From IMG/VR virus record IMGVR_UViG_3300031111_000001, positions 1-64,000 of that record: a stretch of 64,000 nucleotides of DNA; one strand, given 5' to 3'. The notes below the pieces were generated by a model that saw nothing but the letters and a program-made list of their open reading frames with translations, had not been told where the DNA came from and did no database searches. The translations under genes and the position numbers were made by a program. Below, in pieces: positions 3,607 to 53,264 of the stretch; the first letter of the stretch is position 1; each line of letters opens with the position of its first letter. The stretch is from a virus.

Positions 3607-3875
3607 GTAAGTGCAAACGCATCGTCATGCATCTGCTGCGCGAAACCGGAGACGGCACTGTCAGAGTCATCAATTTCCTGCTGTATGTCTGGCTGATCTT
3701 TATCATGTGGCCCGTCTGGGTTCATTATGGGGGTCCGTGTGACTTCCACATCCACTGGTACACGATTCCGGGCGTCTTGACACACATTGCCGTCGCTTGG
3801 TGGCTGGACGACTACCTTGATGACAACTGGTACAACATCAAACGCAAAATAGGCTGCTACGACAATGACTACTGA
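3603..3875 (+). CDS. small two-helix membrane protein
   Basis: 90 residues, starting inside the previous stop (ATGA). Two hydrophobic stretches are seen, about residues 24-40 (FLLYVWLIFIMWPVWV) and 53-67 (IPGVLTHIAVAWWL), followed by an acidic and then basic tail. No family recognised. It is part of the tightly packed early operon and follows another membrane protein, so the two may act together at the inner membrane. Confidence 0.5.
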   Translation: MSKCKRIVMHLLRETGDGTVRVINFLLYVWLIFIMWPVWVHYGGPCDFHIHWYTIPGVLTHIAVAWWLDDYLDDNWYNIKRKIGCYDNDY

Positions 3876-4056
3876 AGAACGACTCCAGCGCATCGAAGCG
3901 TACTTGGACCTTGGCCCGCCGCCTGACGGCTGGGTGACCATCCAGAAGATCAACGCCATGAGGGAGGTGGGGTTCTCTGTCACGGGTGCCCGCCAGTACC
4001 TGATCAAGAACTGCGGCGAAATGCCGTCCAACATCTGCATCGGAGAAATCCAATGA
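3865..4056 (+). CDS. hypothetical small protein
   Basis: 63 residues, overlapping the previous gene by eleven bases and the next by four. A helical start (MTTEERLQRIEAYLDLG) is followed by WVTIQKINAMREVGFSVTGARQYLI, which has the spacing of a helix-turn-helix of the kind seen in small DNA-binding adaptors. That reading is weak. No other features. Confidence 0.5.
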   Translation: MTTEERLQRIEAYLDLGPPPDGWVTIQKINAMREVGFSVTGARQYLIKNCGEMPSNICIGEIQ

Positions 4057-4583
4057 GCGAAACCGAAATCAACGTCGGCAAACTGGTCCCGGTGCCCATG
4101 GAAGGCACTATCGAGGAAACCTGCCGGGCCATCCTCCAGCGCGAGTTCCCCGGATGGGAATGGATGGAGTACAGCGATGGCCTGGAAAACCTGAACGAAG
4201 CCGTCAACGATGGCCCGTACTACTTCGCCCACGACGACAAGCTCTACCGCGTCGAAATGGAGATCGAGGACACCACGGGAGGCTACGACATTGATGTCGC
4301 CACCCTGAACCCCGATGGGACCATCAGCTTCGTCCTCCAGTACTACAACGGCGGGTGTAGCTTCGACGAGGCCATGGCTGACGCCATGGGTAAGCTCCGG
4401 GTGCCCGACGAGAAGGATCAGGAATCCCGCGTCTTGCCCATCTGCACGGCTTACGAGCAGGGCTATGGAGACGGCTACCAGGGCAAGCTGCACAAGCAGA
4501 ATCCCTATGCCGTGGGATCGGACTGCGCCTGGGCGTGGGACTACGGCAAGGCCGAAGGCATCGCCAATGGGAACCCCCAATAA
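4053..4583 (+). CDS. hypothetical early protein
   Basis: 176 residues with a four-base overlap to the upstream gene. The middle part is acidic with beta-strand character (YYFAHDDKLYRVEMEIEDTTG), and the C-terminal part has a glycine/aromatic run (AYEQGYGDGYQGKLHKQNPY). The last 50 residues resemble the small helical modules with a YxxGxxxG pattern found in other phage early proteins. No membrane segment. Function unknown. Confidence 0.55.
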   Translation: MSETEINVGKLVPVPMEGTIEETCRAILQREFPGWEWMEYSDGLENLNEAVNDGPYYFAHDDKLYRVEMEIEDTTGGYDIDVATLNPDGTISFVLQYYNGGCSFDEAMADAMGKLRVPDEKDQESRVLPICTAYEQGYGDGYQGKLHKQNPYAVGSDCAWAWDYGKAEGIANGNPQ

Positions 4584-10727: not shown

Positions 10728-10818
10728 GGAAGGTAGCGCACAATGGTGTGCAACGGGGCTTGAAACCCTGGCTATCGGTGACGAGCCGATAGGGGTTCGA
10801 TTCCTCTACCTTCCTCCA
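10728..10818 (+). tRNA. tRNA-Ser(TGA), encoded CCA
   Basis: Acceptor GGAAGGT/ACCTTCC, anticodon loop CTTGAAA with TGA, a long variable arm (class II), T-loop TTCGATT and encoded CCA. Position 8 appears to be A instead of the usual T. Confidence 0.85.
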
Positions 10819-10819
10819 T

Positions 10820-10895
10820 GCCGGGATGGCTCAATTGGCAGAGCAGTGGATTTGTAATCCACAGGTTGTCGGTTCGACTCCGTCTCCCGGCCCCA
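10820..10895 (+). tRNA. tRNA-Thr(TGT), encoded CCA
   Basis: Acceptor GCCGGGA/TCCCGGC, anticodon stem GTGGA/TCCAC with loop TTTGTAA, T-loop TTCGACT, CCA encoded. One base after the Ser gene. Confidence 0.93.
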
Positions 10896-10896
10896 T

Positions 10897-10975
10897 AGGG
10901 GTGTCGCCAAGTGTGGTCGAAGGCAACGGGCTTTGATCCCGTCATTCGTGGGTTCAAATCCTACCACCCCTGCCA
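10897..10975 (+). tRNA. tRNA-Gln(TTG), encoded CCA
   Basis: Acceptor AGGGGTG/CACCCCT, anticodon stem ACGGG/CCCGT with loop CTTTGAT, T-loop TTCAAAT, discriminator G and encoded CCA. Confidence 0.92.
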
Positions 10976-10984
10976 GTATTTTGC

Positions 10985-11158
10985 ATGTCTGCGGTGAAGC
11001 TGTTGGTTTGTGCGCCCCATGGAGGCAATCGAATTGGCGGTGGACCTGACCAGGGAACGCGGTGGTCCGCGAAGCGTGAAGGCCAAGCGTGGAGATCGCC
11101 AAGAGGCCGCTGCGGGGAGCCCGCAAGCCGGTTGGTTCAAATCCAACCAGACATGCCA
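10985..11158 (+). ncRNA. 174-nt tRNA-like RNA with perfect acceptor and T-arm
   Basis: ATGTCTG (10985-10991) pairs perfectly with CAGACAT (11148-11154), followed by discriminator G and CCA. Directly before lies a canonical T-arm, GTTGG-TTCAAAT-CCAAC, at the correct spacing. Between them are about 130 bases in which I cannot place a normal D-arm or anticodon arm; they hold GTGGACC/GGTCCGC (about 11039-11080) and TGCGGG/CCCGCA (11111-11126) hairpins. It lies inside the tRNA cluster and is followed at once by a strong terminator. Either a tRNA with a ~100-base insertion or a tRNA mimic. It lacks the GGGG start and tag reading frame of tmRNA. Confidence 0.55.
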
Positions 11159-11210
11159 CGATAATATTCCTTCGCTAATCGAGCGTTAGCGAAAGAATAT
11201 TATCGTTTTT
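11159..11210 (+). terminator. strong rho-independent terminator inside the tRNA cluster
   Basis: A long hairpin, CGATAATATTC plus TTCGCTAA pairing with TTAGCGAA plus GAATATTATCG across 11159-11205, followed by TTTTT. It ends the first tRNA block. Confidence 0.88.
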
Positions 11211-11297
11211 GGGGGAGTGGTGGAATTGGTAGACACCCTGGTTTCAGAAACCAGTGTCGATAGCGGCGTGAGAGTTCAAGTCTCTCCTTCCCCACCA
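11211..11297 (+). tRNA. tRNA-Leu(CAG), encoded CCA
   Basis: Acceptor GGGGGAG/CTTCCCC, anticodon stem CTGGT/ACCAG with loop TTCAGAA, class II variable arm, T-loop TTCAAGT, CCA encoded. Confidence 0.92.
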
Positions 11298-11301
11298 TCA
11301 T

Positions 11302-11378
11302 CTGTGCGTGGGGCAGTCTGGTAGCCCACCTCCTTCGGACGGAGGTCGTCGGATGTTCAAATCATCCCGCACAGACCA
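11302..11378 (+). tRNA. tRNA-Pro(CGG), encoded CCA
   Basis: Acceptor CTGTGCG/CGCACAG, anticodon stem CCTCC/GGAGG with loop TTCGGAC, T-loop TTCAAAT, discriminator A, CCA encoded. Confidence 0.92.
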
Positions 11379-11379
11379 C

Positions 11380-11454
11380 GTCACCATCGTCTAATGGATA
11401 GGACACCGGGCCTTCAACCCGTCAATCGGAGTTCAATTCTCCGTGGTGACGCCA
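11380..11454 (+). tRNA. tRNA-Glu(TTC) with C at position 33
   Basis: Acceptor GTCACCA/TGGTGAC, D-arm and T-arm normal, CCA encoded. The anticodon loop is CCTTCAA, so the base before the TTC anticodon (position 33, base 11412) is C, where T is almost universal, and the outermost anticodon-stem pair is C-T. Confidence 0.82.
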
Positions 11455-11460
11455 AATTTT

Positions 11461-11536
11461 GCTTTCATCGTCTAAGTGGGCAGGACGCTGGGTTTCCACC
11501 CCGGAAGTGTCGGATCGTGGCCGTCTGAAAGCTCCA
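11461..11536 (+). tRNA. tRNA-Gly(TCC) with divergent T-loop
   Basis: Acceptor GCTTTCA/TGAAAGC, anticodon stem CTGGG/CCCGG with loop TTTCCAC, encoded CCA. The T-arm is unusual: loop ATCGTGG, not TTCRANY, and a stem with a T-T mismatch, so the tertiary contact with the D-loop may be weak. Confidence 0.75.
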
Positions 11537-11547
11537 AGGATCATATC

Positions 11548-11724
11548 ATGGAAAACCCCAACGAGATCGTCCGCGACCTCGCGATTCTGCTTCGCGAATA
11601 CTTCAATGGGAAAATCATCCTTCCTGACGATCCGGTCTACCGCCGGGCTGAACGCTATTTGGTCAGCCTGGGCGCACAGGCCGCGATCAAACGAATAAAT
11701 ACCACCCCGGCCCGGCACACCTAG
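11548..11724 (+). CDS. small hypothetical protein among tRNA genes
   Basis: 58 residues, ATG at 11548 shortly after AAGGA that overlaps the end of the tRNA-Gly gene. The product (MENPNEIVRDLAILLREYFN ...) is a helical, charged polypeptide with no membrane span. Codon use fits neighbouring genes. No family recognised. Confidence 0.5.
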   Translation: MENPNEIVRDLAILLREYFNGKIILPDDPVYRRAERYLVSLGAQAAIKRINTTPARHT

Positions 11725-11767
11725 CCTGTAATACCGAGAGACAAGGGGCTGGGGTGGTTAATTTTTC

Positions 11768-11845
11768 GGTCCTGTAGCTCCAATTGGATAGAGCGCGTGG
11801 TTGTCAGCCATGAGGTTGCCGGTTCAAGCCCGGTCTGGACCGCCA
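11768..11845 (+). tRNA. tRNA-Asp(GTC), encoded CCA
   Basis: Acceptor GGTCCTG/CTGGACC with a T-T mismatch at the sixth pair, anticodon stem CGTGG/CCATG with loop TTGTCAG, T-loop TTCAAGC, discriminator G and CCA. Confidence 0.88.
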
Positions 11846-11899
11846 TTTCATAACTGGTCTGAAATTCAAGACCCAACAAACTCAAGTGAGGAGAATCCT

Positions 11900-12298
11900 A
11901 TGCCCTGTGTCCCCCTGTCTGCCGCCAAGCTGCCCTTCCCGCATGCCGTGGAGAAGGCCGGTCTGCTGGCCGTCGAGAACATTCTGAGCGACGACACCGA
12001 CACCCCCGCCGTGGACCTGGAGGTCTACGAGTCCCAGATTCGCACCACCGGCTCTGCCGGGGCCGAGAATCTGGCCGTGCCCGATGGCTCTGTGGTCGGT
12101 CAGCGCAAGCTGCTGACCCTGGCTGTTCTGGGCGCTACGGGTGACTCCGTTGCCCTGGTCGCGACCAACATCCACAACGCCAGCGGCACCCAGGCCACTG
12201 GCGTGACCTTCGATGCTGCTGGCGAGTCTCTGCTCGTCGAGTGGACCGGCTCCGAGTGGCAGGCCATCTATACGACCGCCACCATCGCTACCGCCTAG
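11900..12298 (+). CDS. probable structural (decoration-type) protein
   Basis: 132 residues from the ATG at 11900, behind GAGGAGAATCCT. Rich in Ala, Thr, Gly and Val with beta-strand alternation (GVTFDAAGESLLVEWTGSEW near the C-terminus), a pattern frequent in phage head-decoration or fibre-base proteins of the form TFDAAGExLLLxWTGxxW. No catalytic motif. The strong ribosome binding site suggests high expression. The structural role is inferred from composition and position between late genes. Confidence 0.5.
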   Translation: MPCVPLSAAKLPFPHAVEKAGLLAVENILSDDTDTPAVDLEVYESQIRTTGSAGAENLAVPDGSVVGQRKLLTLAVLGATGDSVALVATNIHNASGTQATGVTFDAAGESLLVEWTGSEWQAIYTTATIATA

Positions 12299-12319
12299 TA
12301 GTGAAGTAGGGAGGTTGGT

Positions 12320-12871
12320 GTGGGAACAGAACGCAAATTGCTTGTAATGGGCAGCGCGTACTGCCTGGATGCAGACCTGTCGAAAGTTGATGTCGCTGAT
12401 TACGACGTAATGGCAGTCAATCATGCAGGCGTGCATTATCCAGGGAAACTCCGCTACTGGGCGTCAGTGCATCCTGAGTTCTTCACCGGGAAGAAGAAGA
12501 TCGACTATATTGGAGAAAGAAAGTCTTGTGGCTACGACATGGACTTTCTCCTTGTGTTCCCTTGGAAGGACATTTGGACACCGGAGTGGCCGAAATTCAT
12601 CGAGATTCGATTCGACAAGCTGGCTGGAACATCGGGTTTATACGCCGCAAGGGCTGGACTGGCTCTTGGGTACACAGACATCACACTCGCCGGGGTTCCA
12701 ATGCGGGCTTCCGAAGGGAGCCTCCAGTACGGTGAAGTGTGGCCTGGGTTTCGGACCAGCAAAACAAAAAATGCCCATCGGAGCGCATGGATTCGCGCCA
12801 AGGACGAAGAGTTCAAGGGCCGAGTCAGATCGCTGTCTGGGTGGACGCGAGAGATATTGAGCGGTGAGTGA
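12320..12871 (+). CDS. Rossmann-like phage protein of the GSAxCLxxDL-AVN type
   Basis: 183 residues from a GTG at 12320 behind GGGAGGTTG. The N-terminal LLVMGSAYCLDADLSKVD ... VMAVNHAGVHYPGKLRYWAS is a nucleotide-type Rossmann start followed by the AVN-x-AG motif found in many short phage proteins. It is distantly like the MptE/DUF115 and sialyltransferase-type folds. The middle has TSGLYAARAGLALGYTDITLAGVPM, a Gly-rich helix-strand unit. Substrate unknown; it may modify surface sugars or be a remnant of such an enzyme. Confidence 0.5.
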   Translation: MGTERKLLVMGSAYCLDADLSKVDVADYDVMAVNHAGVHYPGKLRYWASVHPEFFTGKKKIDYIGERKSCGYDMDFLLVFPWKDIWTPEWPKFIEIRFDKLAGTSGLYAARAGLALGYTDITLAGVPMRASEGSLQYGEVWPGFRTSKTKNAHRSAWIRAKDEEFKGRVRSLSGWTREILSGE

Positions 12872-12907
12872 ACCTCGCCGGTTGCATGTTTTCGTGTGTT
12901 ATTACGC

Positions 12908-12983
12908 TGGGATGTAGCTCAGTCGGCAGAGCGGGTGCCTGTTAAGCATCAAGTCGCGGGTTCGATCCCTGCCTTCCCAGCCA
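12908..12983 (+). tRNA. tRNA-Asn(GTT), encoded CCA
   Basis: Acceptor TGGGATG/CTTCCCA with one T-T mismatch, anticodon stem GGTGC/GCATC with loop CTGTTAA, T-loop TTCGATC, discriminator G and CCA. Confidence 0.9.
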
Positions 12984-12990
12984 AAATTTT

Positions 12991-13341
12991 ATGGAGAAAC
13001 GAATGAGAGCCGCCCCTTATAACCTCTATGTCGAGACGGGTGCCGATCTGGACCTGAATCTGACGCTCAAGGACACGGACGGGAACATTATTGACCTGAC
13101 CGACTACTCCATTGAGGCCATGATCGCCCGCGACTACGGGGACGTAGCCGTGGCGGTTTTCACCGGGACCATTACCGACGCCGTGAACGGTGTCGCGAGT
13201 CTGTCCCTCCCCAATACCGAGTCGTCCAAGCTGACGTTCACCAAGGGCGTCTGGATCGTTGAACTGGTCGAGCCGAGCGGCAAGATCAGGCGCATCATCC
13301 AGGGCCGGGCGACGATCTCGCTGGGAGTGACCGATGCCTAG
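12991..13341 (+). CDS. structural protein of the tail-fibre region
   Basis: 116 residues, beginning seven bases after the tRNA-Asn gene. The MRAAPYNLYVETGADLDLNL start, followed by KDTDGNIIDLTDY and a VWIVELVEPSGKIRRIIQGR end, is the pattern of a small beta-sandwich protein found beside fibre genes in many phages (YNLxVExGATxxLxLxxxDxxGxPxDLTGY). It overlaps the collagen-fibre gene by eight bases and is probably its assembly partner or collar. Confidence 0.6.
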   Translation: MEKRMRAAPYNLYVETGADLDLNLTLKDTDGNIIDLTDYSIEAMIARDYGDVAVAVFTGTITDAVNGVASLSLPNTESSKLTFTKGVWIVELVEPSGKIRRIIQGRATISLGVTDA

Positions 13342-14938
13342 CACTGAATCCATCACCATCGAGCAGATAGGGGAACATGACCTCGCGCTCATCGGTGTGG
13401 ATGTAGTTGATGCTTGCGTGGTGGAAGTGTGGGAGCCCAGCCCCATCGTGGTGCAGGTTTCCGATACTGAACCCCCGGCCATCCTGATTCAGGATTCCAG
13501 CCCTGTTGCAATTGAGGTCGCCCAGGCCGTGGAGGCCGTCTCCATCGCCGTTCAGGGCGACGAGGCCATCGAGTGCATCGAGGTCGCTGTCGGGCTGACG
13601 GGTCCACAAGGCCCACAGGGCGAAGCTGGTCCCCAAGGTGAGCGGGGTATCCAGGGAATTCAAGGCCCGCAAGGCGAAACTGGTCCGCAAGGCGAACAGG
13701 GCATTCAGGGAGTCCAAGGAATCCAAGGTGAAACCGGCCCCCAAGGTGCTACTGGTCCACAAGGTCCACAAGGCGAAACTGGTCCGCAAGGCGAAACTGG
13801 TCCGCAAGGCGAAACTGGTCCACAAGGCGAAACTGGTCCGCAAGGCGAAACTGGTCCGCAAGGCGAAACTGGTCCACAAGGCGAAACTGGTCCACAAGGC
13901 GAAACTGGTCCACAAGGCCCGGAGGGTTCACAGGGTGAACAGGGCCTCCAGGGCGTTCAAGGTCAACAGGGTGAACAAGGCCCCCAAGGAATCCAAGGGG
14001 AGACTGGCCCTGCCGGGACAACCGATTACACGCAGCTTGAGAACGTCCCCGAGGTGTTCCCGCCGGATGAACATGCACATTCCTCACTTCAATATGCCGA
14101 TGAAGATTTTCTATCGTGTAGTGGATCATCAATTGATCTGAAACATAAGTGTGAGGGGAAAACCGCAAATACTTCTATGTCGTATAACGGCACAGTCGCA
14201 TCAGATACTGATTGGCACTGTATGTTCAACCAGTGTACCCGTGGTCGTGGCAGTAACCCAGACAATTTATCTCCCGTGCAAGACGGTGATTATCTACTTG
14301 CATTTAAGGGTATTGGTTGCGCGGCTGCTGGTGTAAATTTGAATGGTGGCGGTTTTTCATTAAGAGTTAATAGCACACCAGCCGATGGGGCATTTGCAAC
14401 AAAACTTGATTTTGATGTGCTTAGTGCTTCTGGTGTGGTTAAGCGGCTACAAATTCGAGACTCATCTCTTCAGTTTGATGGGCTCAATTTGCAAGCATGG
14501 AATAGCGCCAATATTGTAAGTGTATATATGTGGTCTAATGTTGACGTTCCAGCATCTGCTGTTGATTTTGCATGGTCTGGTGCCCTACTCAATGGAGCAA
14601 ATTGGGGTTTTACGAACGGCGATGATGTGCTTGAAATTCCGTCTACAAGATATTGGGATATTTATTGGAGTCTTGCATATGAGTGTTATGCATATACATC
14701 TCAGCCAAGAGTAAGACAATATTTATCTAAAAACGGTGCGGCCATTACGCCGATATATCAAGACCACACATTCGGGGCCGCTGGGGAATACGCCACACTG
14801 TCTGGAACGATAACCACGTATTTGACTGCTGGCGACGAAATAGGAATTTCTCGCCTGTTGCAGTCTGGAACAGGTACAATTCGCTCCAGGGCCAGCATGT
14901 GTTATTTTGGGATTAACCCAAGTGACAAAAGGATATAA
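13334..14938 (+). CDS. collagen-repeat tail fibre
   Basis: 534 residues. After an 88-residue N-terminal part, residues about 90-227 are almost pure Gly-X-Y ([11 protein letters not shown] type), expected to form a collagen-like triple helix. The C-terminal 300 residues are beta-rich, and the last 100 ([16 protein letters not shown] ... [20 protein letters not shown]) resemble a C1q/TNF-like jelly roll, which would trimerise the fibre and may bind the host surface. Base composition after about 14080 is clearly more AT-rich than in neighbouring genes, suggesting that the receptor-binding end was acquired separately. The repeat block at DNA level is unstable in principle and may vary in length between isolates. 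Confidence 0.85.
13763..13918 (+). repeat. 18-bp tandem repeats coding for Gly-Pro-Gln-Gly-Glu-Thr
   Basis: Eight complete copies of GGTCCRCAAGGCGAAACT (13763-13906) and a partial ninth, differing only at the sixth base. They lie within the collagen-like segment of the fibre gene. Confidence 0.92.
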
Positions 14939-14940
14939 CC

Positions 14941-15252
14941 ATGGCATTGCGTGTTTCTTCTCTTCACATCCCCGGTGAGGTCCAGATTGAGGACATCATC
15001 TACACGGCTGGGTTGACACTAATCGACGCCTACGTGGTGCTGGACCGCTTCACTTTTCGAAAGTCCGCCCCAGAGGCCGAGCGAGGCAAATGGGCGGCCC
15101 GCGTCTACACCGGCCATGGCGGCAACTTTGTGGCCCACGTTGGCTACGTCATCGGCCCTTGTGATACCAGTTCAGATGCCCCCGAGGCGACGGCGCAGGG
15201 TTATGCTCTCGCTAAACTGGACCCGCGTTTTGCAGACGCGGAGGACTGTTAA
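14941..15252 (+). CDS. hypothetical protein downstream of the fibre
   Basis: 103 residues, start two bases after the fibre stop. Begins MALRVSSLHIPGEVQIEDII, with a beta-type middle (WAARVYTGHGGNFVAHVGYV) and a polar end. Close coupling to the collagen fibre gene suggests a fibre-assembly or chaperone role, but no family is recognised. Confidence 0.5.
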   Translation: MALRVSSLHIPGEVQIEDIIYTAGLTLIDAYVVLDRFTFRKSAPEAERGKWAARVYTGHGGNFVAHVGYVIGPCDTSSDAPEATAQGYALAKLDPRFADAEDC

Positions 15253-15283
15253 GTGGGCTTCGATCTGTCGCTAGGTAGATCAT

Positions 15284-15358
15284 GAGGTCGTAGCTCAGAG
15301 GCAGAGCATCTGGCTTTTAACCAGTTGGTCGAAGGTTCGATCCCTTCCGGCCTCACCA
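15284..15358 (+). tRNA. tRNA-Lys(TTT), encoded CCA
   Basis: Acceptor GAGGTCG/CGGCCTC, anticodon stem TCTGG/CCAGT with loop CTTTTAA, T-loop TTCGATC, discriminator A and CCA. Confidence 0.93.
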
Positions 15359-15398
15359 TATTCACCAAGTGCAGTTCTCCTTGCTTTGGTTGGCCCGT

Positions 15399-15428
15399 GG
15401 CGGCGGGGCTAAACGCCGCCCATTTTTC
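15399..15428 (+). terminator. rho-independent terminator
   Basis: GGCGGCG (15399-15405) and CGCCGCC (15414-15420) around GGGCTAAA-type loop, then CATTTTTC. Confidence 0.8.
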
Positions 15429-15430
15429 TT

Positions 15431-15510
15431 AATGCCAAGGATTCTTGGCGTTAAGCCCCACAATGCCAAGGATTTTTGGCATTAAGTACCCCTCACAGCA
15501 TGCTGTGAGG
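15431..15510. repeat. two 25-bp imperfect palindromic repeats and a 20-bp perfect palindrome
   Basis: AATGCCAAGGATTCTTGGC (15431 on) and AATGCCAAGGATTTTTGGC (15462 on) are parts of a 25-bp direct repeat with two differences, 31 bp apart; each copy is itself a dyad. CCTCACAGCATGCTGTGAGG (15491-15510) is a perfect 20-bp palindrome. They sit between the tRNA-Lys and tRNA-Tyr genes upstream of the portal gene and could be operators or RNA processing hairpins. Confidence 0.6.
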
Positions 15511-15538
15511 CCAGCGGTGGCCTGTGCCCCGCTGCTTG

Positions 15539-15624
15539 GGGCGTATGGCCCGAATGGTAAGGCAGCGGACTGTAAATCCGTGCCCCGTAAGGGGTTGGTG
15601 GTTCGAATCCATCTGCGCCCACCA
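15539..15624 (+). tRNA. tRNA-Tyr(GTA), encoded CCA
   Basis: Acceptor GGGCGTA/TGCGCCC, anticodon stem GCGGA/TCCGT with loop CTGTAAA, class II variable arm GCCCCGTAAGGGG, T-loop TTCGAAT, CCA encoded. Confidence 0.93.
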
Positions 15625-46563: not shown

Positions 46564-46698
46564 CTACACGCTCTTGAAGTCGGCAAACTTGCGGTCGGCA
46601 AGCTCCTGCTTCTTGCCCGCATTCCAGCGGGTGATCGGGCGGTAGTAGCCAACGATACGGGCCATGGTACAGGTCGTCTTGACCTTCGGTTGCGCCAT
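46564..46698 (-). CDS. stand-alone glycyl-radical tail of the anaerobic ribonucleotide reductase
   Basis: 44 residues from the ATG at 46698 behind GGAGGTGTGACC. The product contains CTMARIVGYYRPITRWNAGK followed by KQELADRK, which is the C-terminal segment of class III NrdD proteins (RVxGYYRPVxxWNxGKxQExxDRK). Gly17 in RIVGY is the residue that carries the radical, placed there by NrdG. The NrdD body at 47807 ends without this segment, so this peptide probably docks in trans to form the active enzyme, much as the small GrcA protein serves pyruvate formate-lyase. Its Cys10 could complete the zinc site. Two bases lie between its start and the nrdG stop. Confidence 0.82.
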   Translation of the reverse strand: MAQPKVKTTCTMARIVGYYRPITRWNAGKKQELADRKFADFKSV

Positions 46699-46700
46699 GG

Positions 46701-47273
46701 TCACACCTCCTTGTTCGGCTGAACCCATTTCACGGTCCAGCGATTCAGAAGATCACCGGAGAGCTTCTCCAGTGAGGCCCCGTAGTCGTCCTTGTATTTG
46801 GGGAAATCCACGATGCGGAGTTCGCGATATTTCGCGCTGGAGTAGTATTCCAGAGCGCATCGCAAGCGTCCGATGTATTCCTGTTCCGGCATGATGCTGA
46901 CCTCGCTGGTCGGCTTCAAAGACAGGATCACAGACTCAAAGGGATTTCGGATGTTCCTCGGTAGGACCAGTCCGTTGGATTGCAGTGCCAGTGGGCGTCC
47001 GAAGAAGAATCGAACGGCGTTGTGAAACTCCGGGTGGCATGTCGGTTCGCCCCCAGAGAGGACGATGCCGACCTTCTGCGTGTGAAACGCAAGCTGCATC
47101 CGGTTGAGGTGGTGCGCAATGTCCTTGAGGGAATAAACGGCCTCGCCGCGCACCACGATCTTGTTGTGGCAGAAACTGCAATTCAGGTTACATCCATTGA
47201 AGAACAGGGTCATTGCCAATTTGCCGGGGAAGTCGATCATGCCCGTGCAGAACCCGGTGAATGCCTCCATCAT
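46701..47273 (-). CDS. nrdG: anaerobic ribonucleotide reductase activase (radical SAM)
   Basis: 190 residues, ATG at 47273 behind GGAGGGTTCC. The cluster motif CNLNCSFC (Cys28, 32, 35) binds the 4Fe-4S centre, and LSGGEPTCHPE is the SAM-binding motif. It makes the glycyl radical on NrdD, here probably on the separate 44-residue peptide encoded immediately downstream. It overlaps the upstream small gene by four bases. Confidence 0.92.
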   Translation of the reverse strand: MMEAFTGFCTGMIDFPGKLAMTLFFNGCNLNCSFCHNKIVVRGEAVYSLKDIAHHLNRMQLAFHTQKVGIVLSGGEPTCHPEFHNAVRFFFGRPLALQSNGLVLPRNIRNPFESVILSLKPTSEVSIMPEQEYIGRLRCALEYYSSAKYRELRIVDFPKYKDDYGASLEKLSGDLLNRWTVKWVQPNKEV

Positions 47274-47494
47274 GGAACCCTCCGATCTACCTGATCGATC
47301 AGCTTGGATAGCATTTCGACCATCATGTTCCTGATCCGCTCTTTTGTGTGCTGCCTAATGTATTGGCGTTGGGCGGCAGAGCAGAGTAGATCGGTGTTCA
47401 ATGGAGAAAACCGCACTCGCTCTTGAAGAGCCAAAAGTTGCTCACGAAGGGCGAATGCTGCCAATTGACGGGCAGTCATCGCTGCCCGGCTCAT
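47270..47494 (-). CDS. hypothetical helical protein
   Basis: 74 residues, start overlapping the HU stop by one base (TAATG). Basic and entirely helical (RQLAAFALREQLLALQERVR, KERIRNMMVEMLSKLIDQVD). Lies between HU and nrdG in the operon. No family recognised. Confidence 0.5.
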   Translation of the reverse strand: MSRAAMTARQLAAFALREQLLALQERVRFSPLNTDLLCSAAQRQYIRQHTKERIRNMMVEMLSKLIDQVDRRVP

Positions 47495-47769
47495 TAGGCG
47501 TTCAGGGAGGCCTTGAAGGTGCCGCTGACCGTAAACTTCACGGACTTGGTGGCCGGGATCAGAATCTTCTCGCCGGTCTTGGGATTGCGGCCATCACGCG
47601 GGGCACGCTCCACGGGCACCAGCTTGCCGAAGCCGCTGATGGCAACGGTGTCGCCACCGGCCAGCACGTCCTTGATCTCGCCGAAGATCAGGTCCACGGT
47701 GGCCTCGGTCTTGGCTTTGGACAGGCCCAGCTTGGGAGCGATCTGCTCCACGAACTCCATACGATTCAT
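47494..47769 (-). CDS. HU/IHF-family DNA-bending protein
   Basis: 91 residues. Helices MNRMEFVEQIAPKLGLSKAK and the conserved beta-arm GFGKLVPVERAPRDGRNPKT-GEKI identify the HU family; the VKFTVSGTFKASLN end is also typical. It has its own leader with the CCCTTCGCAA motif. Could compact phage DNA or help integration and replication. Confidence 0.93.
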   Translation of the reverse strand: MNRMEFVEQIAPKLGLSKAKTEATVDLIFGEIKDVLAGGDTVAISGFGKLVPVERAPRDGRNPKTGEKILIPATKSVKFTVSGTFKASLNA

Positions 47770-47789
47770 TGTTGCTCCTTGTTCTTGTA

Positions 47790-47799
47790 TTGCGAAGGG
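47790..47799 (-). promoter_or_regulatory. leader motif CCCTTCGCAA before the HU gene
   Basis: The leftward strand reads CCTCTAACCCTTCGCAA, close to the leaders at 1543 and 7563, followed by AAGGAG. Confidence 0.4.
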
Positions 47800-47806
47800 T
47801 TAGAGG

Positions 47807-49648
47807 TTATCCCTCGACCAGTTCGGGATGCTCTTTGCGCAGAGCTTCGATCTGTTCGGGGGTATGTTCGTTCGGGCACGCTTCGTGAATGCCCTGGACC
47901 GGCCCACAGATGGGGCACATTGAGTAGGTCACGTTCAGCCCGAAATAGGGCAGATTGGTGTCGCAGATCATCCGCACCAGAGCCTCGGCGTCCTTCTCGT
48001 CGATCTCATGATCGAGATAGAAGTGCTGGACCGTGCCCCCGGATGGGATCACCTGAAGCTGCGTTTGGGTGGCGAAGACCAGATCAAGCTGATCCTGCAT
48101 GTCAGCCGGGACAAAATGGCTGTTCGTGAAGTACGGCCTGACCTTCAGCCCCTGATGCTCGATGTCGGGGAAGCTCTTGAGAGCCTTCTTTGCCAGCTTG
48201 TAGGACGCGCTTTCGGCAGGGGTGGCCTCAAGATTGAAGAGCGTCCCTGTCTCGTTGATGAAGCGATCCACGTTGGATTTCATGCGATGCAGGACGCCCT
48301 TGGCAAACTCCAGGCCTTCCGGCGAGGCAAAGCCGAAGCTGTCGTTGGTCGCGATGCAAGTGGCCTCCCAGAGGCCCACAAAGCCGATGGTCGTAAAGAA
48401 CGTGTCGAAACGGCGCGGCAGGTTTGCCATGCACATGGGGAAAAACCCCTTGTCGTAAAACTCGTTCACGACCTTGCGCTTCCATAGTTCCTCGTCCTTG
48501 ATCAATTCCATCCAGCGGTCCAGTTCCTCCCAGAAGCTCAAGTCGTTCGCCTTGCAGTGCTGGGCGAGGTACGGGAGGGAGATTGTGACAACCTGAAGGG
48601 AGCCAGTGCTGTCTCCAGCACCAAACAACCCGCCCGTATGGGAACGGAGGTCGTTCAGGTCGAGAGACAGGCGGCAGCACATGCTGCGCACGTCTCTGGG
48701 ATCAAGCCGCTTGTCGCCGGAAGTCACGCCGTTTATGAAGTTCTGAAAGAACGGCGTGCCGTATTTCGCGGTAAGTCTCCAGACCCTGGACCTGATATGG
48801 TCGATTTCAGGATCGTCGAGGAAGTCTTCCGTGACGTTGATGGTCAGGACAGGGAACGTAAAGCCCTTGCCGGTATAGTCGCCCTCGATGAAGATATCCA
48901 AGATCGTGGCACACACAAGCTGCTGCCAGTGTTCCAATTCCCCGTAGGTGCTGTTTTTCACCTTGATTCCGTCTTCGTGATACGAATAGAAATCGTCGAG
49001 GGATTTGCTGCCGATGCTGGCGCGTTGATCTCTCATATCTTCCGGGCACTTCATCGCCAACGTGATGTTGGTGAAGGGTGTCTGACCGCCGTAGCGGTTG
49101 GTCTGGTTCAAATGGAAGATCAACTCTTGGATGCTTTGTCGCACCTCCTCCCGCGTTTGCTGGAAGGCGATCTGGCGCGGCACCCCTTGCTTCTTCTTGT
49201 CGAGGTAGAACTTGTATGCGTAGGCCCCAAGGTACACGTCGATGTCGTTGAATGCGATGGCCCCAGCCACTTCGTTGCACACGGAGCCGATGGTGTTCAC
49301 CATGTGGTTGATGACCGTGCGGAAGTGTTTTGGGGGACCAGACGGCACGGGGCCTGTGTTCATGCCGTTGTTGATCAGCATCGCCATTGATAGGCCGATG
49401 CAGTAAGGGGTCAGGTAGCCCAGTGACAGATCGTGGATATGACAGCCACCAGCCTTGTGGAGGTCCACAAGTTCCCCAAACTCTTCTTCAAGTCGTTTCA
49501 GGTTGTCCCGGTTGAGACAAACCCCGCCAACTGTGAAGAGCAAACCGTTTGGTGTGACTCCCATGTTGGCGTTTTCGTTGTTGTAGTCGCCGCCCGCCAC
49601 GTAATCATCAATGATCGTGTCTATGCGGACGCGAACCTCCTTGGTCAT
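47807..49648 (-). CDS. nrdD: anaerobic ribonucleotide reductase body, lacking the glycyl-radical end
   Basis: 613 residues. Class III features: HKAGGCHIHDLSLGYLTPYC near residue 63, TPFTNITLAMKCPEDM near 187, GTPFFQNFING, VRSMCCRLSLDL, and the barrel end IPSGGTVQHFYLDHEID. The zinc site is partial: Cys578, Cys581 (MCPICG) and Cys591 with His595, then stop after ELVEG. The usual RVxGY radical segment does not follow; it is found as a separate gene at 46564-46698. No ATP-cone is seen at the N-terminus. Reduces ribonucleotides without oxygen, so it points to an anaerobic host. Confidence 0.92.
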   Translation of the reverse strand: MTKEVRVRIDTIIDDYVAGGDYNNENANMGVTPNGLLFTVGGVCLNRDNLKRLEEEFGELVDLHKAGGCHIHDLSLGYLTPYCIGLSMAMLINNGMNTGPVPSGPPKHFRTVINHMVNTIGSVCNEVAGAIAFNDIDVYLGAYAYKFYLDKKKQGVPRQIAFQQTREEVRQSIQELIFHLNQTNRYGGQTPFTNITLAMKCPEDMRDQRASIGSKSLDDFYSYHEDGIKVKNSTYGELEHWQQLVCATILDIFIEGDYTGKGFTFPVLTINVTEDFLDDPEIDHIRSRVWRLTAKYGTPFFQNFINGVTSGDKRLDPRDVRSMCCRLSLDLNDLRSHTGGLFGAGDSTGSLQVVTISLPYLAQHCKANDLSFWEELDRWMELIKDEELWKRKVVNEFYDKGFFPMCMANLPRRFDTFFTTIGFVGLWEATCIATNDSFGFASPEGLEFAKGVLHRMKSNVDRFINETGTLFNLEATPAESASYKLAKKALKSFPDIEHQGLKVRPYFTNSHFVPADMQDQLDLVFATQTQLQVIPSGGTVQHFYLDHEIDEKDAEALVRMICDTNLPYFGLNVTYSMCPICGPVQGIHEACPNEHTPEQIEALRKEHPELVEG

Positions 49649-49723: not shown

Positions 49724-50248
49724 TTACTGCCCGGAGTGACCGAAGCCGCCTTCCCCGCGTTCGGAGTCGGCCAATTCGTTTGCCACCACGAACTTCAGAT
49801 TACGATTGATGACGGGCTTGATGACGCCCTGCGCGATCCTGTCGCCCTTTTTGATGATCAAGGGCATGTTCATTGTCACGATGCCCAGGTCAGCCATGTT
49901 CGTGACGTGGCCGTCGATATCCACCTCGATAGTGTCCTTGCCTTCGTACTGGGCATTCATCAGGCAATGGACGATTATGTTCAGTGGGCCTCGGTAGCCT
50001 TCGTCCACGGTGCCGGGCGAGTTCTTGATGATGTAGGGGGTTTCGAGGGCCATGCCGCTACGCGGACGGACCTGCATTTCGGTGTTTGGGGGAAGTTCCA
50101 TCGAGAGCCCGGTCTGAATCACGACAGTTTCGCCGGGCAGGACGATCACATCCTCGATGGTGTAAAAGTCAAAACCAGCATCGCCTGCTTTGGCGATGGT
50201 TGGGATAACGGCGTCAGGATGCCGTTTTCTCCACTTCACAGTCTGCAA
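49724..50248 (-). CDS. dut: dUTPase
   Basis: About 174 residues. A TTG at 50248, eight bases after GGAGG, is the likelier start; a GTG at 50257 lies on top of the binding site. All five motifs can be traced: AGDAGFDFY (1), RPRSGMAL (2), GTVDEGYRGPLNIIV (3, with catalytic Asp), KKGDRIAQGV (4) and RGEGGFGHSG (5). An insertion of about 15 residues lies between motifs 3 and 4. It makes dUMP for ThyX and keeps uracil out of DNA. Confidence 0.92.
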   Translation of the reverse strand: MQTVKWRKRHPDAVIPTIAKAGDAGFDFYTIEDVIVLPGETVVIQTGLSMELPPNTEMQVRPRSGMALETPYIIKNSPGTVDEGYRGPLNIIVHCLMNAQYEGKDTIEVDIDGHVTNMADLGIVTMNMPLIIKKGDRIAQGVIKPVINRNLKFVVANELADSERGEGGFGHSGQ

Positions 50249-50477
50249 TCGCTGCACCTCCGGTGATAATGGTTTGGAGTTGGGCCTTCACGTTGGCCGC
50301 AGCCGTGATCTCGGCGACGATGGCGTTGTTGCGTTGCTTCAGGGTGTCGATCTTGGTGTTGTTGGTGGTCTTCTCGCCCTGGAGCAGCTTGGTCCCTTCG
50401 TCGAGCTTCGCAACCATGGTCTTGAACTGCCCGATGACTCCACGAATCTTCTTGAAACCCTTGTCTTTGTTGAACAT
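50214..50477 (-). CDS. coiled-coil protein downstream of the vWA gene
   Basis: 87 residues, nearly all helix with heptads (FKKIRGVIGQFKTMVAKLDE, KTTNNTKIDTLKQRNNAIVA). It lies twelve bases after the vWA gene and overlaps the start of dut. Probably a small oligomeric partner of the vWA or DUF2828 proteins, from context alone. Confidence 0.5.
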   Translation of the reverse strand: MFNKDKGFKKIRGVIGQFKTMVAKLDEGTKLLQGEKTTNNTKIDTLKQRNNAIVAEITAAANVKAQLQTIITGGAAIADCEVEKTAS

Positions 50478-50488
50478 GTTGTACTCCG

Positions 50489-51106
50489 CTAGGGGGTCTG
50501 GACGGCCATGGTATTGTCGCCAGTCCCACGGTAAGCCGTGGTGTAAGCCGACATGGTTGCGCCGGAAGCGATCAGGCCACTGCTGCTGCGGTCAAAGGAC
50601 GCGCACTTGGAAGCGTTCAGGCCCAGCTTCGCGCCCTCGGCCTTCCCGTCGATCCCGGCAGCGAGGAAGATGAAGTCCCAATTGTACTTCTCCTTCTGGT
50701 GCCGGACCATCTCGTTGATGATGGTCGCGCCGTACTCGCGAGACTGATTCTCATGGCCGTCCGTGAGGACCACGAACAGGACGCGGGCGGGCCGCTCGTC
50801 TTCGGGCAAAGCGTTCAGTTCGTTGCCCACCCTGGTGATCGTGATGCCAACGGCGTCCAGCAGGGCGGTCATGCCACGGGGCTGGTACGTCTCGCCCAGG
50901 ATCAGGTCGGGGCAGTCCTTGATGGGCTTACGGGTGTAGATCACCTCCACCACATCATCGAACTGCGTGAGGGACAGTTCGGCCTCGTCGGGGCCGGTGC
51001 GCTGTTCGTCGAGGAAACGGTTGAACATCCCCACGGCCTCCGGGGCAATGCTGCCCATGGAGCCAGAACGGTCCAGAATCACGTTGATCAGAGTCATGTC
51101 TTTCAT
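50489..51106 (-). CDS. vWA-domain protein with intact MIDAS
   Basis: 205 residues from the ATG at 51106 (a TTG at 51112 and an ATG at 51097 are alternatives). The metal-ion adhesion site is complete: DRSGSMGS (12-19), the threonine in RGMTALLDAVG (about 80) and VLTDGHENQS (about 115). It directly follows the DUF2828/TROVE-like gene, which has its own vWA domain. Two vWA proteins in a row suggest a complex built on metal-mediated contacts. Confidence 0.82.
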   Translation of the reverse strand: MKDMTLINVILDRSGSMGSIAPEAVGMFNRFLDEQRTGPDEAELSLTQFDDVVEVIYTRKPIKDCPDLILGETYQPRGMTALLDAVGITITRVGNELNALPEDERPARVLFVVLTDGHENQSREYGATIINEMVRHQKEKYNWDFIFLAAGIDGKAEGAKLGLNASKCASFDRSSSGLIASGATMSAYTTAYRGTGDNTMAVQTP

Positions 51107-51108
51107 GG

Positions 51109-52500
51109 TCAATTGTCCATCCAGTTGTACTTGTTATTCATGATGGCCTTGAGCATGACGTTGGTGGGCGTCAGGCTTTCCAGACCCGCTTCCATGATCG
51201 CCTTCATCACCGCCGGGGAGTACCCGCTGACGAGGGCAGCACCAGACTGATGCTGGCGCACGGGACAGTTGCCGGGCCGGGCGTTCAGGTTCCAAAACAC
51301 GACGTTCGGAAGCTCGTAGCCGTACCGGGTAAACTCGGCAGTAGCGTTGGTGAAAAGGTGGTTGCTGCCCGTGACACAGGAATCGAACTCCATGTCGGAG
51401 AAGATGATCAGCGTCCTGGGCATGTCCTCGGCGGGCACCTTATTCCCGACGGCCACCTTGAGGATTTCTCCCATGGCCTTCTCGATGTTGGTGTTCATGC
51501 CCCAATGGGCACGCTCCAGATTCGCCTTTTTGGCAATGATGTCTCGACCATGCAGGGTGTGGAACTGCGGATTCTTAGAAAAGGTCAAGACCAAGTCCTT
51601 GAAGGCCCCGGTCTGCCGGGTGGCGATGAACAACCCCATGGCAACAGAAACGTCGAGGGCAGAGAGATTGGGAGAAATCTGCGCCCACATGGACCCGGAG
51701 ACATCAACCATCGGCAGCACGCCGTTCAGGTTGGCCGGGAACGGAATGGCATCCCACTGCGCCTGGACGGCCTTCCGCTGCGTGCCCTTCAGCACGTCGT
51801 GGGGGAAGATTGCACTGGCGTTGATCTTGGCCTCGCCCTTCTCCAGAGCGTTCAGGTACGCACCGTAGCGGTCACCGCAGTTGCGGGTGAACGCCTTCTG
51901 GTAACGGGCCGACGCGACGGACGGAACGTGGTTGAACTCGATCTTGTCCCACTCCCCGGCGCACATCTTCTGCTCGACGGTGTTGGACAGGCCCACCAGC
52001 AGCTTGCGATACTGCTTGGGGGCCAGACCCATGAACTCGCGCAGGGCCACGGCATTGTCGCCCTTGCGGGGCATCCATTTGGCACACAGGCCGTCACCGG
52101 CTTCCAGTGCCTCGGCGATGAAGGGGAAGATGTCGTGTTCGCGCAGTTCGTCGTCCCCGAAGTGCAGGAGGTCATCCCAACGGCCCACGACGGGCACCAG
52201 CGGGATCAGTTTTTCGACCACTTCGGGCCGCTCATGGCAGAGCGTGTCCATCAGGTTGCGGAAGGTCTGGCGCTCACCGGCACCACCACGGCAGTCTCGC
52301 GCCCAGAGCAGGGTGCGGATGGCCTTGTCCTCGTCCGCGACAAAAGCGTCCCAAAAGGGATCGGAAACGTCCTTGCCACGGCTGGCCCCGATCATGAAGA
52401 ACAGATCGACAAGCGGGTTCAGGGTGGTGGAGAACGCCTCCATTCCGTTGGCAGTGTGGGAGTCACGGATGTTGTTGACGCCATTGACAAACTGGTTCAT
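51109..52500 (-). CDS. DUF2828/TROVE-like protein with vWA domain (Ro60-like fold)
   Basis: 463 residues. The N-terminal 250 residues are alpha-helical repeats with LLWARDCRGGAGERQTFRNL, VVGRWDDLLHFG, KWMPRKGDNAVALREFMG, YRKLLVGLSNTVEQKMCAGE and NHVPSVASARYQKAFTRN, the pattern of DUF2828, a relative of the TROVE (Ro60) RNA-binding ring. The C-terminal vWA has DVSGSMWAQ (265-273) and IIFSDMEFD (about 365). Ro60-type proteins bind misfolded RNA and Y RNAs. Here a set of Y-RNA-like elements lies immediately upstream on the same strand, and the start codon is inside the seventh of them. RNA binding is an inference from family and context. Confidence 0.8.
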   Translation of the reverse strand: MNQFVNGVNNIRDSHTANGMEAFSTTLNPLVDLFFMIGASRGKDVSDPFWDAFVADEDKAIRTLLWARDCRGGAGERQTFRNLMDTLCHERPEVVEKLIPLVPVVGRWDDLLHFGDDELREHDIFPFIAEALEAGDGLCAKWMPRKGDNAVALREFMGLAPKQYRKLLVGLSNTVEQKMCAGEWDKIEFNHVPSVASARYQKAFTRNCGDRYGAYLNALEKGEAKINASAIFPHDVLKGTQRKAVQAQWDAIPFPANLNGVLPMVDVSGSMWAQISPNLSALDVSVAMGLFIATRQTGAFKDLVLTFSKNPQFHTLHGRDIIAKKANLERAHWGMNTNIEKAMGEILKVAVGNKVPAEDMPRTLIIFSDMEFDSCVTGSNHLFTNATAEFTRYGYELPNVVFWNLNARPGNCPVRQHQSGAALVSGYSPAVMKAIMEAGLESLTPTNVMLKAIMNNKYNWMDN

Positions 52501-53188: not shown

Positions 53189-53264
53189 TGGGGAGATCGG
53201 GCAGAATCGAACTTCCACTCCACGGGTCACAACCGTGTGCTTTGACCATTAAGCTACGAACTCC
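53189..53264 (-). tRNA. tRNA-His(GTG), encoded CCA
   Basis: Extra 5' G (position -1) opposite discriminator C, anticodon stem CACGG/CCGTG with loop TTGTGAC, T-loop TTCGATT, CCA encoded. The acceptor and T stems each have one mismatch. It sits between Y-like elements 2 and 3. Confidence 0.85.

Follow-up and report, generated by a model that had tools for sequence, protein, structure and literature searches.

Class III ribonucleotide reductases (RNRs) are treated as enzymes of one chain that carries its own radical. Known split forms include an nrdD with an intron or intein and a fragmented nrdD. In phage T4, the small separate protein Y06I carries a radical glycine that serves pyruvate formate-lyase in trans. 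A small separate protein of this kind is also described in GrcA/YfiD, which brings the radical glycine to pyruvate formate-lyase in trans (PMC8683613, PMC12338860), and RNR catalytic chains are naturally distributed over two genes in NrdJa/NrdJb and in NrdA-a/-b of Aeromonas phage Aeh1 (PMC9669993, PMC5704485, PMC3653736). Our literature search turned up no account of an NrdD whose glycyl-radical domain (GRD) has a gene of its own, although an earlier mention may exist. RefSeq already names such small GRD genes nrdD; the small genes are known to annotation, whereas the split arrangement itself is, as far as we have seen, apparently undescribed.

The window, a stretch of 64,000 nucleotides from the IMG/VR virus record IMGVR_UViG_3300031111_000001, contains an nrdD cluster in which the glycyl-radical loop is not on the body chain and is encoded by a separate gene (Table 1). 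The coordinates, strand and gene order given in an earlier note on this DNA were borne out by the sequence. In a Pfam scan, PF13597 (NRDD, 562 columns) matched the body over columns 1–534 (E 3.5e-120) and the 44-aa product over columns 534–560 (E 1.4e-7, better than the curated cut-off), with the radical-glycine loop falling in the tail's share. This division confirms that the split proposed in that note is real. A simple frameshift, which it had already set aside, does not fit three intervening genes and a tail with its own start. The tail ATG (46698) lies 2 nt past the nrdG TGA and is preceded by AAGGAGG within the end of nrdG, in agreement with the good ribosome-binding site noted before; because of this short gap and the position of the site, translation of the tail looks coupled to that of its own activase.

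Table 1. Features of the nrdD cluster (positions are those of the window)
Feature	Position	Strand	Details
dUTPase-like gene, upstream of nrdD	49724-50257	minus	recognised from translation
nrdD body	49648-47807	minus	613 aa; C-terminal end ...CPICGPVQGIHEACPNEHTPEQIEALRKEHPELVEG
HU-type DNA-binding protein gene, between the halves	47769-47494	minus	Bac_DNA_binding E 2.2e-28
74-aa ORF, between the halves	47494-47270	minus	no Pfam, NCBIfam or PHROG match
nrdG, radical-SAM activase, 190 aa	47273-46701	minus	Radical_SAM E 2.9e-10
AAGGAGG ribosome-binding site (in nrdG 3' end) and 2-nt gap	46699-46712	minus	read from sequence
Tail gene, 44 codons, product MAQPKVKTTCTMARIVGYYRPITRWNAGKKQELADRKFADFKSV	46698-46564	minus	glycyl-radical loop RIVGYYRP

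The NrdG activase partner is present, as the radical-SAM gene adjoins the tail gene; the top NCBIfam match of its product was NrdG2 (E 3.9e-17, under that model's cut-off). The 74-aa ORF gave zero matches in Pfam, NCBIfam and PHROG. Body and tail were the sole NrdD matches in the whole 114,562-bp IMG/VR record, which is possibly incomplete. A second full-length NrdD, which according to the earlier note would have made the pieces dispensable, was looked for and not found there, and neither was a class I or class II RNR large subunit. Near the nrdD cluster, two adjacent ORFs (50489-51112 and 51109-52500) were read by eye as von Willebrand A-like and TROVE/vWA-like. Elsewhere in the window, an ORF at 13334-14938 carries a long collagen-like repeat and is probably a structural or fibre protein, and twelve tRNA genes are located at 10728-15624 and 53189-53263.

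An alignment of 44 NrdDs revealed no variation in the MCCR finger loop of the body with its radical cysteine (C324/C325), in the partner active-site cysteine C83 or in the NxEATPxE segment. The body has no ATP-cone. Among PDB folds, its AlphaFold model (mean pLDDT 87.4, pTM 0.89) best matched class III RNRs, those from T. maritima, P. copri, S. thermophilus and T4. The zinc-type cysteines of the body are C578, C581 and C591, with H595 conserved alongside. The bodies of the window clade share a C-terminus special to them, consisting of C-x2-C followed by CPxxH[TS]xE and a conserved run of residues, the last of which are PEL or similar. Because this C-terminus is shared and clade-specific, a zinc site of C578/C581/C591/H595 is predicted from the body alone, and the extra C-terminal stretch is a candidate dock for the tail. 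The suggestion that a cysteine of the tail (position 10) completes the zinc site fails in the window clade, since this cysteine is absent from the tails of L006, L008 and L010 and all clade bodies keep C-x2-C...C-P-x2-H. In two Verrucomicrobiota splits (L186, L190), the break lies inside the second CxxC and the tail starts with MAKCGEK, including a zinc-type cysteine; there, both chains would have to contribute to a zinc site.

The radical glycine of the window tail is G17. Across ten stand-alone tails, R13, G16, R19, N25, G27, K28, E31 and R35 (numbered without the start Met) are invariant, and the relatives of the window tail are all distant, at about 46–56% identity. Related stand-alone tails showed more synonymous than amino-acid changes, with dS 0.28 and dN 0.034 for L057/L065 and dS 1.21 and dN 0.058 for L082/L084, values that derive from few codons and from other lineages than the window. 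A Pfam scan of the tail down to E 1 returned PF13597 only, and the pyruvate formate-lyase glycyl-radical domain was not matched. Homology of the tail to GrcA was considered and rejected; the analogy is functionally apt, but Pfam gives no homology and the state of the partner differs.

Relatives of the locus were found by profile scans of viral contigs, while a single-sequence scan of these contigs returned zero; tail-profile scans then added L349 and L350. In this way, the truncated NrdD with a nearby mini-gene that the earlier note proposed to search for in phage genomes was found in independent viral records. The window clade includes five other phage lineages with the split, namely L006/L007, L008/L009, L010, L349 and L350. 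The first three have bodies 52%, 47% and 46% identical to that of the window, respectively, and in each of them the truncated body is accompanied by a tail of about 41–50 aa from its own gene. The genes between the halves vary: L349 and L350 have only nrdG there, L006 has a small ORF and nrdG, and L008 and L010 have nrdG together with a dUTPase-like gene, which lies between nrdG and the tail. The halves, separated in the window by HU, a small ORF and nrdG, are still linked across the clade. With the missing segment at most 1.1 kb away on the same strand and recurrence in independent genomes, the arrangement is far beyond chance. Judged from these comparisons, phages have carried the split stably for a long time.

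Apparent inteins were observed inside the split NrdD bodies of L008 (5941-8322), L010 (2911-5211) and L350 (1818-4646), those of L008 and L010 sitting within the barrel. Together with reports that introns or inteins frequently interrupt phage nrdD genes (PMC3653736), they lend some plausibility to a rejoining of body and tail after transcription or translation into one chain, through a trans-splicing intron, a split intein or recoding. However, the region gave no Rfam structured-RNA match, introns included, neither window end carries an intein-like sequence, and three other genes lie between the halves. Furthermore, the tail starts independently, from a ribosome-binding site of its own, and the last part of the bodies is a conserved stretch particular to the clade and not a bare breakpoint. 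We regard rejoining as very improbable.

The same architecture extends beyond the window clade. A second viral set (L013, L031, L054, L057, L064, L065, L068, L082 and L084) has bodies that end after CPxC and separate tails of 62–82 aa, and L015 is a further, separate viral case. In L064, an HNH-type endonuclease gene, read from its translation, is located between split body and tail (4211-4579). Among the 13 split-type viral records, 12 contain one body and one stand-alone tail, and the remaining one (L012) is cut at the contig end. A scan of bacterial genomes with the second-set tails gave at least 571 confirmed matches, and most of the 80 retained have a truncated body plus a separate GRD gene. 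The 151 loci with an identifiable body comprise 79 split, 71 fused and one truncated without a visible tail at a contig end, a count that is no estimate of prevalence because split tails served to retrieve half of the set. Wherever a truncated body lay clear of a contig end, a tail was close by. Additionally, the split was identified in 6 of 9 NrdD-bearing genomes of the class of Cupriavidus (evenly drawn genomes, including the chosen centre), in most of 16 from Alphaproteobacteria and, as a truncated body with a neighbouring tail, in 20 of 81 from Verrucomicrobiota. In some bacterial genomes, the sole NrdD is split.

In a quick tree built from 65 bodies, the window clade (SH-aLRT 100), L015 and the large bacterial clade with Cupriavidus necator H16 lie apart from one another, and the actinobacterial members are mostly fused. 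The fused/split label needs at least five changes on this tree, all forced by starred branches and counted without direction. At L148 and at loci G030, G171, G201, G213 and G216, a single stop codon separates body and tail of an NrdD gene, which share one reading frame; the tail of L185 (G201) has its own start. The earlier note knew of no described natural case for NrdD, but the split is not a lone one: it recurs in phages of the window clade, in other viruses and in many bacteria, C. necator H16 among them. As read from these genomes, the arrangement is genuine, has been stable in evolution and is more widespread among viruses and bacteria than expected.

Cupriavidus necator H16 provides a cultured example. 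Its plasmid pHG1 encodes a 676-aa body (calculated 76.19 kDa) with no RxxGY motif and, beside it, a 66-aa GRD gene (RefSeq name nrdD) and nrdG. NrdDG is reported to be essential for complete denitrification in this strain, and the NrdDG of strain CH34 is listed as Rmet_5137 and Rmet_5139, with one locus tag skipped (PMC2864759, which cites Siedow et al. 1999 for the former). The split enzyme of C. necator H16 is probably functional.

The window locus itself comes from a single metagenomic record, which could point to an assembly error, a frameshift or a decaying gene. However, the same architecture is present in independent contigs from other samples and in complete plasmid records of cultured bacteria, the body is intact across 613 codons, and the tail keeps all invariant GRD residues. 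The relatives with the same architecture refute this explanation, to which we assign next to no probability.

Tails also occur without a body. In 45 of 50 viral records examined over their full length, some of which may be fragments (including L194, L213, L240, L271, L307 and L309), a stand-alone NrdD tail was found and no body, and a motif search detected an NrdG-like ORF within 5 kb of the orphan tail in none of the 45. Among the orphan tails with a called start, 35 of 43 have a ribosome-binding-site match of at least 4 bases. Neighbouring genes include those for terminase (L307 and L309), for a major head protein (L309) and for replication (L271). An orphan tail is also present in an archaeal virus, ANMV-1 (L005, KP703175.1): its ORF at 3773-4117, annotated as anaerobic ribonucleoside triphosphate reductase, consists of a GRD only, with its own CxxC motifs, and the 38-kb record contains no NrdD body. 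In eleven Verrucomicrobiota genomes, extra tails were found alongside other NrdD copies. Several of the extra GRD tail genes in L171, L173, L175, L176 and L187 (Verrucomicrobiota) lie amid phage-like genes.

By analogy with GrcA, these observations suggest that orphan phage tails may be spare radical loops for host NrdD. More broadly, the glycyl-radical loop of class III RNR may be a widespread free module that many phages carry alone to re-arm host NrdD, with splits, including the one in the window, arising where a free loop made the loop of the body dispensable. We consider this broader reading about as probable as its opposite; it is based on the 45 of 50 tail-only records, the lack of an NrdG-like ORF within 5 kb, the genuine phage neighbours at the loci checked and the eleven Verrucomicrobiota genomes.

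Applied to the window, the abundance of viral tails without a body, ANMV-1 among them, would allow the tail to be a GrcA/YfiD-like spare part for host NrdD, next to a phage body that is inactive or unrelated to it. This seems very unlikely, as a catalytically intact body without exactly this segment lies in the same cluster, likewise in relatives, and no truncated body away from contig ends is without a tail. A spare-part role and a two-chain role are not exclusive.

We are highly confident that the locus encodes a two-chain class III RNR, in which NrdG would activate a small chain that docks in trans. According to the gene sequences, both halves exist, fit without overlap, are intact and separately started, and remain separate yet linked in diverged phages. 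The tail peptide most likely acts in trans. In the proposed mechanism, the 613-aa body would contribute the barrel with the thiyl-radical finger loop as well as a zinc finger of its own, and the 44-aa peptide the glycyl-radical loop. NrdG would install the radical on the glycine of the small peptide, whose GYYRP loop would enter the barrel next to the zinc finger and the conserved C-terminal extension of the body, while its NxGKxxExxxR part would pack on the body surface as in fused NrdD. The radical would then move to Cys324/325 of the finger loop, as it does from the fused loop of an ordinary NrdD, and the small chain could easily be replaced after oxygen cleavage.

A radical loop made as a separate chain would amount to a natural two-component system, where radical installation, docking and transfer could each be investigated on their own, and a radical carrier of 44 aa is small enough for synthesis. 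Whether NrdG acts on a free loop and whether phages supply spare radical loops to host enzymes become testable questions. The split could also make a loop cleaved by oxygen cheap to replace, and this may be why the split has succeeded in denitrifiers and in phages that have to make dNTPs near oxic-anoxic boundaries. For annotation, a truncated NrdD with a neighbour of 40–80 aa is probably a complete enzyme, and orphan tails probably represent auxiliary genes that have been overlooked.

Compared with known systems, GrcA complements a full-length enzyme from another family, which has its own radical domain and is rescued once cleaved, whereas the window body never has its own loop and the 114,562-bp record holds no full-length NrdD. 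NrdJa/NrdJb belongs to class II and Aeh1 NrdA-a/-b to class I, and the detached piece there is no glycyl-radical loop. The bacterial split NrdDs (for example C. necator H16, WP_011154155.1 and WP_011154154.1; Azospira sp. I09) share the truncated body, the separate GRD gene and the clustered nrdG with the window. However, they form their own tree lineage; their body has an ATP-cone-like N-terminal extension and ends in CPxC-DEE, with four cysteine/histidine ligands, and their tail of 59–79 aa lies upstream of nrdG. The single-chain NrdDs (T. maritima 4COI/4U3E, P. copri 8P23, phage T4 1H78) resemble the window enzyme in family, fold, finger-loop cysteines, NrdG partner and glycyl-radical loop sequence, but they hold zinc finger and radical loop in one C-terminal domain, whereas the loop of the window is a separate gene product. 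We infer that the window enzyme works as a class III RNR with its loop in trans, departing from single-chain NrdD in this one defining feature.
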